Position numbers and translations under genes: made by a program. A stretch of DNA of 64,000 bases from Zooshikella harenae (GTDB lineage: Bacteria; Pseudomonadota; Gammaproteobacteria; Pseudomonadales; Zooshikellaceae): the NCBI RefSeq assembly GCF_018837975.1, contig NZ_JAGSOY010000006.1, positions 62,001-126,000 on the forward strand, given 5' to 3'. The notes below the pieces were generated by a model. That model did not search any database. It was not told where the DNA came from and saw only the letters and a list, made by a program, of their open reading frames with translations. Below, piece by piece: positions 4,397 through 11,410 of this stretch. Positions within the stretch are counted from its first letter, which is position 1. Each line of letters opens with the position of its first letter.

Positions 4397-4472
4397 GGGC
4401 AGATAGCTCAGCTGGGAGAGCATCGCCCTTACAAGGCGAGGGTCGGGGGTTCGATCCCCTCTCTGCCCACCA
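4397..4472 (+). tRNA. tRNA-Val (anticodon TAC)
   Basis: Seventy-six nucleotides fold into a full cloverleaf: acceptor GGGCAGA/TCTGCCC, D-loop AGCTCAGCTGGGAGAGC, anticodon loop CTTACAA with TAC, T-arm GTTCGATC, and encoded CCA at 4470-4472. It is co-transcribed with the tRNA-Asp 15 bases downstream. The same gene recurs at 4808 with an identical sequence. Confidence 0.97.
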
Positions 4473-4487
4473 TTTCTTATAGGATTC

Positions 4488-4564
4488 GGAGCGGTAGTTC
4501 AGTTGGTTAGAATACCGGCCTGTCACGCCGGGGGTCGCGGGTTCGAGTCCCGTCCGCTCCGCCA
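4488..4564 (+). tRNA. tRNA-Asp (anticodon GTC)
   Basis: Seventy-seven nucleotides with acceptor GGAGCGG/CCGCTCC, anticodon loop CTGTCAC with GTC, T-arm GTTCGAGTC and encoded CCA. GTC is one of the four queuosine-type anticodons (G34 exchanged for Q). Second member of a Val-Asp pair. Confidence 0.97.
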
Positions 4565-4807: not shown

Positions 4808-4883
4808 GGGCAGATAGCTCAGCTGGGAGAGCATCGCCCTTACAAGGCGAGGGTCGGGGGTTCGATCCCCTCTCTGCCCACCA
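4808..4883 (+). tRNA. tRNA-Val (anticodon TAC), second copy
   Basis: Identical in sequence to the tRNA at 4397-4472, with encoded CCA at 4881-4883. First gene of the second Val-Asp pair. Confidence 0.97.
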
Positions 4884-4898
4884 TTTCTTACAGGATTC

Positions 4899-4975
4899 GG
4901 AGCGGTAGTTCAGTTGGTTAGAATACCGGCCTGTCACGCCGGGGGTCGCGGGTTCGAGTCCCGTCCGCTCCGCCA
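4899..4975 (+). tRNA. tRNA-Asp (anticodon GTC), second copy
   Basis: Identical in sequence to the tRNA at 4488-4564, with encoded CCA. Followed by a weak AT-rich hairpin that may end the transcript. Confidence 0.97.
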
Positions 4976-8228: not shown

Positions 8229-9545
8229 TTATGAAGGAAGTTGAGGTGTTTTAAAAAAGGTTTGTAATACCTTATTTAAGGTATAGCCATCTTGGTTACC
8301 AGTTAATTCTCTAGGTGAGTGCATAGCAAAAGTAGGAACACCAATATCTAACGTTTTTACCCCTAATTCTCCTGCAGTAATTGGACCAATGGTTGAGCCA
8401 CATGCCATATCTGTGCGGACAATAAATGATTGAAAGGGCGCATTTTGCTGCTGACTTAACCATTTGTAAATAGCTGCTGTTTCACTGTTTGTAGCATATC
8501 GTTGATTACAATTTTGTTTAATGACTGGGCCATGATTAAGTATTGGGCCATGGTTAGCATCATGCCGGTCTGCATAGTTTGGGTGAATACCATGGGCATT
8601 ATCTACAGAAATCATAAGTGAATCTGACATTACTTTAGCTGTGGTGATAGGGCAGCCGATGATACGAGTTAATGTTTGTTGTAGAAAAGGTCCCTGAGCA
8701 CCACAGTGTGATTGACTGCCGACTTCTTCGTGATCATTACAAACCAGTAAGCATGGCACTTCATTACTTTGATAGTCACTGTTGACTAGGGCATGAAGTC
8801 CAATAAAGCAACTTAACAAATTATCCAGTCGAGCACTGGCAATAAACTCTTTTTTTAAGCCAACTAGTGCTGGAGGCTGTTTGTCATAGAAGCAAAGTTC
8901 GTAATCTAAAATTTCTTTAATATCTTGATGACCAGTACTGTTCAATTGATCAATTAACAGTTTATTGAGAGTAGGTTTTTCTGTGCTGTCCTCTGCAATT
9001 AGGCCTAAAATAGGCGGGATATCCGTTTGAGGGTTAATAGAACGTTCTTTATTAGCATTTCTATCCAGGTGTATAGCTAAGCTTGGAATAATAGCTATAG
9101 GCTCCTCAAAATTAATTAAGGTACTGCACATTTGTTTTTGGTTATTTAAAAAAGTAACGCGGCCAGCCAAAGATAAATCACGGTCATACCAAGGGTTTAG
9201 CAAAGCACCACCATAAACTTCTACACCCAATTGCCAATAGTTTTGTTGGTATAGGTCAGCATTTGGTTTGACTTTAAGGCAGGGGCTATCTGTATGGGCA
9301 CCCACAAAACGCCAGCCATGTTTGGTGTATTGCTGGTTACCAGTTGTAAAAACAATAATTGAAGAGTCATTTCGTGTGATAAAATATCCCTGAAAGTCTT
9401 TGAGTGACCAGTCTTCATTTTCTTTTAAAGGTATAAATCCAGCGTTAATCAGCAATTCTGTCATAGAAGAAACAGCGTGAAATGGTGTAGGAGATGCATT
9501 CAAAAACTGTAGAAGCTGCTGATTGAAGTCTGACAATGTACTCAT
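8229..9545 (-). CDS. apeB: M18-family aminopeptidase (ApeB, aspartyl-aminopeptidase type)
   Basis: A 438-residue M18 metallo-aminopeptidase, a cytoplasmic dodecameric enzyme that removes N-terminal residues, often acidic, using two metal ions. Family motifs are present: the metal ligands in HTDSP near residue 80, YGGALLNPWYDRDLSLAGR, the catalytic/metal segment NDHEEVGSQSHCGAQGP, and AMHSPRE near the C-terminus with a metal-binding His. Length matches the family (about 430). It is divergent from the DUF3524 gene, and the two coding regions nearly abut. Confidence 0.92.
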   Translation of the reverse strand: MSTLSDFNQQLLQFLNASPTPFHAVSSMTELLINAGFIPLKENEDWSLKDFQGYFITRNDSSIIVFTTGNQQYTKHGWRFVGAHTDSPCLKVKPNADLYQQNYWQLGVEVYGGALLNPWYDRDLSLAGRVTFLNNQKQMCSTLINFEEPIAIIPSLAIHLDRNANKERSINPQTDIPPILGLIAEDSTEKPTLNKLLIDQLNSTGHQDIKEILDYELCFYDKQPPALVGLKKEFIASARLDNLLSCFIGLHALVNSDYQSNEVPCLLVCNDHEEVGSQSHCGAQGPFLQQTLTRIIGCPITTAKVMSDSLMISVDNAHGIHPNYADRHDANHGPILNHGPVIKQNCNQRYATNSETAAIYKWLSQQQNAPFQSFIVRTDMACGSTIGPITAGELGVKTLDIGVPTFAMHSPRELTGNQDGYTLNKVLQTFFKTPQLPS

Positions 9546-9564
9546 AAGTTACTCTAAATCCATA

Positions 9565-10755
9565 ATGAAAGCTTTGTTTTATTCATATAGTGCCAAAGCT
9601 ATGCCAGAAAACAATACACCAGTTATTTTTCCTAAACGTATTTTGCTGCTTTCACCCTATGATGCAGTGAGTCATCGATATTGGCATAAGGGATTAGTGA
9701 AAGCTTTTCCTGCAATAGAGTGGACGGTACTGACGTTGTCACCACGCTATTTTTCTTGGCGAATTCGTGGAAATAGTTTGACGCTAGGATTGGGCTATCA
9801 AGATACACTTCTTCAGCCGTATGATTTAGTTATCGCTACTTCAATGACGGACCTGTCATCCCTTCGTGGACTGGTACCCGCGTTAACTCAGATACCAACA
9901 ATTCTTTATTGTCATGAAAATCAGTTTGTGTATCCAGCTCAGGAAAATGCTGTTGATTCTGTGGGTGCACAAGTCGTAACGCTTTACTCAGCATTAGCGG
10001 CTGACTGTGTGGTATTTAATACACTGTATAATCAGGAGACTTTTATTTCTGGAGCAAAAAAATTATTAGGTCAGTTTCCTGATGGGGTGCCAAAAAACGT
10101 GATATCTGAAATAACAAGAAAGAGCAGGGTGATACCTGTACCACTACAAGCAGATCTCTTTTTTAAAATTAAACCTACAGTATCAGAGCAGAAATTACAG
10201 ATCGTTTGGAATCATCGCTGGGAGTATGATAAAGCGCCAGAACGTTTTTTTTCAGCAATTGCTCAGTTAGCTACCAAAACGAGAAATATATGTGTTCATG
10301 TGGTTGGACAACAATTTCGAAAGAAGCCACCGTACTTTGCTGAGTTTTATCAGAAATATGCCGATATAGTCGGACAGTGGGGATTTGTTGATAGTCGTGA
10401 AGATTATCATCAGTTGCTGGCCAACAGTGATGTTGTTGTTTCTACTGCATTACATGACTTTCAAGGAATATCAATTCAAGAAGCTGTGGCGTTAGGCTGT
10501 ATTCCTGTTGTACCTGATCGGCTTGCTTACCCTTATTTATTTTCTAAAGCGTTCTGTTATCAATCTAATATTGATGACGTTGAAGGTGAGGTAGATACTC
10601 TTGCGAATCGACTATATCAACTTGTAGTTGCAAAGCAGGAAAATAAATTACCTCAAGCGCCTGAAATGCAAGAGTGGTATTGGTCATCATTAAAAGAAGC
10701 TTATGCTTCCTTATTCACTCAAGTTTGCACTTCATTAACTAAGTACGAGTTATAG
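9565..10755 (+). CDS. DUF3524 glycosyltransferase, tRNA-queuosine mannosyltransferase (QTMAN/GTDC1)-like
   Basis: The N-terminus carries RILLLSPYDAVSHRYWHKGL and SWRIRGNSL, then YCHENQFVYP, VVFNTLYNQETF, IVWNHRWEYDKAPE and STALHDFQGISIQEAVALGC. Each aligns by eye with vertebrate GTDC1, which has been shown to mannosylate queuosine in tRNA-Asp. The second half is a GT-B fold of GT4 type (donor-site EAVALGC). The likely role is glycosylation of Q-containing tRNA; this rests on homology only. The start is uncertain: the frame opens at 9523 inside apeB, ATG codons occur at 9565 and 9601, and no clear ribosome binding site decides. rluA, another tRNA/rRNA modification gene, follows convergently. 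Confidence 0.8.
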   Translation: MKALFYSYSAKAMPENNTPVIFPKRILLLSPYDAVSHRYWHKGLVKAFPAIEWTVLTLSPRYFSWRIRGNSLTLGLGYQDTLLQPYDLVIATSMTDLSSLRGLVPALTQIPTILYCHENQFVYPAQENAVDSVGAQVVTLYSALAADCVVFNTLYNQETFISGAKKLLGQFPDGVPKNVISEITRKSRVIPVPLQADLFFKIKPTVSEQKLQIVWNHRWEYDKAPERFFSAIAQLATKTRNICVHVVGQQFRKKPPYFAEFYQKYADIVGQWGFVDSREDYHQLLANSDVVVSTALHDFQGISIQEAVALGCIPVVPDRLAYPYLFSKAFCYQSNIDDVEGEVDTLANRLYQLVVAKQENKLPQAPEMQEWYWSSLKEAYASLFTQVCTSLTKYEL

Positions 10756-10774: not shown

Positions 10775-11410
10775 TTAAAAGGGGGCAGGAGAAGAAAAAG
10801 ACATTGGGTTAGCATGAATTGGGTGATTAAACTTTAAGTATTTTGCATGAAGTAGCATTCGTTCACTCAAGCGTTGTACTTCATCTGGTGCATACAGTGA
10901 ATCACCAAGGATCGGGTGTCCTAGCATCATCATGTGTACACGTAATTGATGAGAACGACCTGTCACAGGTTTAAGCTTAACACGGGAATGCTGTTTTGTT
11001 TTGTGTATAACATGCCAGTGAGTTAAAGCGGGCTTGCCTTGTTGAGAGTCTACTTTTTGTTTTGGGCGGTTTGGCCAGTCAGCACAAAGAGGCCAAGTAG
11101 CTTTTCCATGATCTTCTTTTATTGCTCCATGTACTATAGCTTCATAGCATTTATCAACTAAGCGATCATGAAACTGTTTTGATAAGTTTCGGTGTGATGT
11201 TTTATCTAAGGCAAGTACCATTAAACCAGATGTTTCCCAGTCAAGGCGATGTATAACTGAGGCATTAGGAAACAACTGTTGTGCTCGAGATGCAATACTA
11301 TCCTTATGCTCAGGTAAGCGGCCTGGAACCGCCAGCAAGCTATTGGGCTTATTGACCACTAAAATATGATTATCTTGAAAGATAATATCGAGTGCTGCTT
11401 GCTGGGGCAT
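10775..11410 (-). CDS. rluA: Dual-specificity 23S rRNA/tRNA pseudouridine synthase RluA
   Basis: A compact 211-residue RluA with no N-terminal S4 domain, as in E. coli RluA (219), which makes pseudouridine 746 in 23S rRNA and 32 in some tRNAs. The catalytic motif HRLDWETSG places Asp57. Other signatures shared with E. coli RluA are DWPNRPKQKVD and VTGRSHQLRVHMMMLGHPILGD. It lies downstream of minE on the same strand, 54 bases from the minE stop, and may be part of the min transcript. Confidence 0.92.
   Translation of the reverse strand: MPQQAALDIIFQDNHILVVNKPNSLLAVPGRLPEHKDSIASRAQQLFPNASVIHRLDWETSGLMVLALDKTSHRNLSKQFHDRLVDKCYEAIVHGAIKEDHGKATWPLCADWPNRPKQKVDSQQGKPALTHWHVIHKTKQHSRVKLKPVTGRSHQLRVHMMMLGHPILGDSLYAPDEVQRLSERMLLHAKYLKFNHPIHANPMSFSSPAPF

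Follow-up and report, generated by a model that had tools for sequence, protein, structure and literature searches.

Mannosyl-queuosine (manQ) has so far been assigned to animals only. In animals, the enzyme QTMAN (GTDC1) gives the queuosine (Q) of tRNA-Asp an alpha-linked mannose at its allylic 3-OH (PMC8654956, PMC12518689). Such a linkage is the outcome that would be expected of a retaining enzyme working with GDP-alpha-mannose. Two reviews call manQ eukaryotic or vertebrate, and a domain assignment (PMC7694415) excludes ManQ and GalQ from Bacteria. No report of a bacterial queuosine mannosyltransferase was found by title or abstract in a partial literature collection, the term DUF3524 was not found in the partial collection searched, and the available portions of PMC12518689 and PMC12313893 mention no bacterial QTMAN enzyme. 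A different enzyme, the glutamyl-queuosine tRNA-Asp synthetase GluQ-RS (YadB), acts on the Q34 cyclopentenediol of tRNA-Asp (PMC3542578, PMC11332805); according to PMC12710937, it is known from bacteria alone.

Here, we analyzed a gene from Zooshikella harenae that lies in a window of 64,000 nucleotides (the whole stretch of DNA analyzed) and whose product is very probably a Q34-tRNA glycosyltransferase. Like animal QTMAN, the protein has a full-length QTMAN_N domain followed by a GT4-type domain; it differs in being bacterial, in having a predicted substrate, and in sharing its genome with GluQ-RS. Its likely target, the cyclopentenediol of Q34, would be the same as that of GluQ-RS, whereas GluQ-RS, a paralogue of aminoacyl-tRNA synthetases, makes an ester linkage and has a fold unrelated to that of the QTMAN-like protein. 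The actinobacterial GDP-mannose-dependent GT4 enzymes PimA, PimB', and methylmannose polysaccharide mannosyltransferase share the GT-B fold with it (Z 26-29 over 316-326 residues) but only 11-16% identity, act on lipid or sugar acceptors, and have no QTMAN_N domain named in them.

Results

Gene and domain architecture

The open frame extends from a TTG codon at 9523 to 10755 on the + strand (410 aa). The earlier note had placed the start at the ATG at 9565, which yields the 396-aa version whose residue numbering is used throughout. The frame itself is real and intact; the start codon, however, is more likely the ATG at 9601, because the ATG at 9565 is missing in a genome of the same genus (G001) that retains the one at 9601, and because conservation among relatives begins at residue 25. 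The gene is single-copy, being its own sole match in the genome, and the protein does not appear to be secreted as far as its sequence indicates. The gene and its predicted elements are as follows.

9601..10755, + strand: QTMAN-like glycosyltransferase gene, likely coding range of 384 aa (open frame, Pfam match, start codon comparison)
9637..10146, + strand: QTMAN_N domain (PF12038), N-terminal and Rossmann-like, the acceptor side of a GT-B enzyme (Pfam, model)
9745..9774, + strand: conserved basic/aromatic loop R61-YFSWRIRG-N70, candidate tRNA/queuosine contact
9913..9924, + strand: HENQ motif, residues 117-120, expected on the active-site side of the acceptor pocket
10177..10554, + strand: Glycos_transf_1 domain (PF00534), the nucleotide-sugar (donor) side (Pfam, E 3.6e-9)
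10207..10233, + strand: WNHRWEYDK, residues 215-223, its Arg and Lys at what would be the usual GT4 diphosphate-binding place
10456..10482, + strand: DFQGISIQE, residues 298-306, the (D/E)-x7-E retaining-GT4 motif with Asp first

The match to QTMAN_N covers the full length of the profile (1-168 of 168) and, with 181 bits, far exceeds the cut-off of 25 (E 2.3e-53). Pfam calls this domain 'tRNA-queuosine alpha-mannosyltransferase N-terminal', and it is through the Pfam family that the protein is linked to the vertebrate one. The match supports the view, already taken in the earlier note, that the protein is a bacterial homologue within the QTMAN family. NCBIfam holds no model for the QTMAN-like protein. 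The window protein carries HENQ at 117-120 and FNT at 151-153, and the aligned rows listed carry HENQ and FN[ST]; we take HENQ and the FNS-type motif to be those of the Pfam DUF3524 description.

Conservation and phylogeny

The two halves of the protein were compared in an alignment, A1, of the window protein with 38 of the best 80 related loci of more than 589; all 39 members match QTMAN_N, and 38 of the 39 match Glycos_transf_1. Over the 741 A1 pairs, mean identity was 55.8% in the N-domain (residues 25-194) versus 42.7% in the C-domain (205-375), and N-domain identity exceeded C-domain identity in 738 of the 741. In GT-B enzymes, the acceptor is held by the N-domain and the nucleotide sugar by the C-domain. 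The higher conservation of the N-domain, in a comparison made within this one family, therefore suggests one fixed acceptor, the same in all these bacteria, rather than a variable surface sugar.

Residues S36, H37, R61, W65, R66, HENQ 117-120, F151, N152, N156, R218, K223, and G301 are at least 97% conserved in 116 rows, and the acceptor-side motifs HENQ, FN[ST], and R-x3-W-R are retained across several phyla. The NHR of the donor-side motif is 98-99% conserved, a figure that applies to 116 of the 120 rows; it is not invariant, since L087, L093, L098, and L099 lack it while keeping HENQ and W-x-x-R-W-E-x-D-K-G. In the L093 protein, additional sequence immediately before the usual W-x-x-R-W contains this motif once more in degenerate form.

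In a tree of 116 of the 120 rows, built with a quick method, the window protein adjoins its genus mate; its closest named relative among the matches listed is that of Endozoicomonas (L002), at 55% identity. Seven rows, all from the second phylum sample (L114, L115, L117, L120, L121, L124, and L126), form a clade with 98% SH-aLRT support and carry an E-F-F-G-type C-terminal motif instead of D/E-F-Q-G. The window protein lies outside this clade, which presumably resembles the animal enzyme more, and the function of the window protein could differ.

Predicted structure

A structure prediction, which the earlier note had proposed as a check, gave a confident GT-B fold (AlphaFold2; pLDDT, 86.8; pTM, 0.86), and the nearest structures are GT-B glycosyltransferases. 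The top neighbors found with VIA-align were sucrose-phosphate synthase (Z 31.6), GlgM, MshA, and BshA. GDP-mannose enzymes are also among the neighbors, namely, methylmannose polysaccharide mannosyltransferase (7qsg, Z 29.0), PimB' (3oka, Z 27.0), and PimA (2gej, Z 26.0); enzymes using UDP-sugars equal or outrank them, and the fold neighbors of the predicted model do not separate GDP-sugar from UDP-sugar use. Sequence searches of the PDB returned no QTMAN structure and matched only the generic C-terminal (donor) half of the protein, e.g., to TarM and WaaG.

Distribution of the family

QTMAN_N was found in 24 of 56 relatives, a set with mostly a single genome for each family of the order. In a sample of 398 genomes from the phylum, 27 have a match that exceeds the cut-off and 28 have one at E 0.001 or better. 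The domain is also present in 16 of 188 genomes of the phylum to which the Lujinxingiaceae genome G085, the source of locus L040, belongs. It was found in none of 14 well-known control genomes, among them Escherichia coli, laboratory strains of which make both Q and GluQ. Among the best 80 of more than 589 loci, the named ones are mostly from marine gammaproteobacteria, the others being Mariprofundus (L022, L032), a Denitrovibrio bin (L046), and the Lujinxingiaceae bin. No phage copy covered more than 80% of the query; the phage matches, which cover at most 65% of it at 25-35% identity, were rejected as other glycosyltransferases. A plasmid search gave no match, and none was confirmed on viral contigs (IMG/VR). 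The lack of phage, plasmid, or viral copies in these searches fits a chromosomal housekeeping-type gene.

Queuosine pathway and GDP-mannose

Absence of the queuosine pathway had been named in the earlier note as evidence that would count against its reading. The Zooshikella genome has the pathway genes tgt (558.6 bits), queA, which adjoins tgt (L131), and queG (504.9 bits), and it also has GMP-PMI (729.6 bits) for GDP-mannose synthesis; both the acceptor substrate and the donor are thus plausible. Tgt was over the cut-off in 23 of the 24 QTMAN-positive relatives, the last (G035) having a fragment at a contig end. It was over the cut-off in 38 of the 42 genomes behind 42 of the best 80 loci, with fragments in two and none in two; one of the latter (G077) has QueA, and the other (G064) lacks QueA and has GluQ-RS over the cut-off. 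A third sample gave a Tgt match in all 16 QTMAN-positive genomes. These genome sets overlap (G035 and G070 appear identical, and G085 is in two sets), and one or more Q-specific genes are present in each of the QTMAN-positive genomes checked. Tgt is, however, nearly universal in the samples whether QTMAN is present or not (54 of 56 relatives; 184 of 188 genomes of the second phylum sample), so the presence of the pathway is necessary yet says little about function.

GDP-mannose synthesis showed no significant association with the gene, being over the cut-off in 22 of 24 QTMAN-positive relatives versus 25 of 32 others (Fisher test ignoring kinship; P value, 0.27, or 0.12 if a contig-edge fragment in G050 is included). 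One genome, G021, has QTMAN_N and no GMP-PMI match. Many genomes in the sample of G085's phylum (G093, G098-G284) have two or more Tgt-like genes.

Proposed reaction and alternatives

We consider the protein to be, with better than even probability, a retaining GT-B enzyme that moves a hexose onto Q34 of one or more GUN tRNAs; the acceptor, sugar, and tRNA in this reading are inferred. By a retaining GT4-type transfer, the hexose, most likely mannose from the donor GDP-mannose, would be attached to a hydroxyl of the queuosine cyclopentenediol at position 34. The C-domain, with WNHRWEYDK and D-x7-E, would hold the nucleotide sugar, and the N-domain, with R61-x-F-x-W-R-x-R-x-N70, HENQ, and FN[ST], would bind the anticodon loop that carries Q. 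On tRNA-Asp, the enzyme would be in competition with GluQ-RS from the same genome.

GluQ-RS is the key complication for tRNA-Asp as the substrate, one that the earlier note did not mention. The allylic OH that bears the mannose in manQ is also the one that bears the glutamyl group in GluQ. In the Zooshikella genome, GluQ-RS is encoded by a separate gene (366.9 bits; cut-off, 276.7), so that mannosylation and glutamylation would be rivals on tRNA-Asp unless the enzyme used another GUN tRNA. QTMAN does not appear to replace GluQ-RS, as the two genes coexist: GluQ-RS is over the cut-off in 23 of the 24 QTMAN-positive relatives (G048 has a fragment) versus 25 of the 32 others, the direction being that of coexistence (Fisher test ignoring kinship; P value, 0.12). 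Over all 57 QTMAN-positive genomes, it is over the cut-off in 42, of which 41 are safer, since G081 has a 508-aa GltX-looking frame. With GluQ-RS already acting on Q34 of tRNA-Asp, the enzyme might instead glycosylate this position in tRNA-Tyr, -His, or -Asn or might use another sugar, an alternative that is unlikely but that we take seriously. Besides this coexistence, the GT4 neighbors in the PDB, which use UDP- and GDP-sugars alike, argue for it; the family, on the other hand, is named after an Asp-specific mannosyltransferase, some QTMAN-positive genomes have no clear GluQ-RS (G087, for example, has matches only to GltX/GlnS-sized frames), and no feature of the sequence selects the tRNA.

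Two further alternatives would take the protein away from RNA altogether. A GT4 enzyme of small-molecule metabolism, such as that of glucosylglycerate-type compatible solutes, would account for the loci in which the gene follows genes for an MPGP-family phosphatase, a GpgS-like protein, and a sucrose-phosphorylase-like protein. This set is not a constant neighborhood, being found at 6 of the best 80 of more than 589 loci and absent from the window. All six are confined to a Marinobacter clade, and the set is missing from other Marinobacter and from all other lineages, while the remaining loci show unrelated contexts such as tsaB-uppP-apeB-QTMAN-trpS; we regard this role as improbable. A role in lipopolysaccharide, capsule, or exopolysaccharide synthesis is more improbable still. 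The profile matches to TarM and WaaG and the WaaG-like structures among the fold neighbors point that way, but the profile matches are confined to the generic donor domain, and no surface-polysaccharide cluster recurs around the gene in the 80 loci (best 80 of more than 589). In surface-sugar enzymes, the acceptor domain is expected to be less conserved than the donor domain, and the opposite is seen here.

If the protein does have QTMAN-like activity, sugar-modified queuosine is not limited to animals, and a simple bacterial system would become available in which to address the role of manQ, long an open question. Together with GluQ-RS, it would set two hypermodifications against each other at a single wobble base, and the question would arise whether animal QTMAN has a bacterial origin. 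We put forward only tentatively a broader proposal, possible but on balance doubtful, that mannosyl-Q or another hexosyl-Q is made by many marine gammaproteobacteria, by Mariprofundus, and by some bacteria of other phyla and that, where a genome has both genes, the labile GluQ ester and the stable sugar compete for the wobble base of tRNA-Asp and form a switch in Asp decoding that depends on sugar supply.

Gene neighborhood and tRNA genes

The following genes surround the QTMAN-like gene in the window; the two flanking protein genes serve as context only.

4488..4564, + strand: tRNA-Asp(GUC), copy 1, a possible substrate gene whose location is not conserved
4899..4975, + strand: tRNA-Asp(GUC), copy 2, identical to copy 1
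8229..9545, - strand: apeB, M18 aminopeptidase, divergent neighbor, with a homologue in 21 of 80 related loci (best 80 of more than 589)
10775..11410, - strand: RluA-family pseudouridine synthase, convergent neighbor, in 0 of 80 related loci (best 80 of more than 589)

The earlier note had pointed to rluA as the adjoining gene. An RluA-family gene does adjoin (over the TIGR00005 cut-off and under the RluA equivalog cut-off), yet it is found at none of the other 80 loci (best 80 of more than 589), and, being convergent with the QTMAN gene, it is not an operon partner. It was also rejected as a functional partner on the evidence of Endozoicomonas L002, where the order apeB-QTMAN-minE-minD-minC, otherwise common to the window, has no rluA. 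In the window, rluA lies between QTMAN and minE, which indicates a local insertion or loss.

No fixed gene partner of QTMAN emerged from the 80 loci (best 80 of more than 589). The order tsaB-uppP-apeB-QTMAN-trpS recurs in Cellvibrionales-type genomes, and homologues of TrpS, ApeB, TsaB, and UppP occur at 23, 21 (window excluded), 19, and 18 of these 80 loci, respectively; the set is translation-flavored, but it is one inherited synteny block. QueA lies about 4-5 kb downstream of QTMAN at 4 of the 80 loci, with other genes between, and linkage to queA or tgt was set aside as too local to weigh, all four loci being from Spongiibacteraceae.

At the six Marinobacter loci with the glucosylglycerate-type set (L049, L051, L069, L070, L071, and L073), the QTMAN-like gene comes directly after the solute-type genes, as if co-transcribed; the gap before it measures 14-15 bases at five of the loci and 110 at L070.

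Two tRNA-Asp(GUC) genes, which the earlier note had reported in the window as genes of the substrate type, are present at 4488-4564 and 4899-4975. Their proximity carries no weight as evidence, as none of the 60 loci scanned among the best 80 has a tRNA-Asp gene; any tRNA gene was found at 4 of the 60 (L015, L018, L029, and L052), among them Pro, Leu twice, and Phe. In the window, a tRNA-Val(UAC)/tRNA-Asp(GUC) pair is tandemly duplicated (4397-4564 and 4808-4975), with identical tRNAs and one mismatch within the first 160 bases of each copy.
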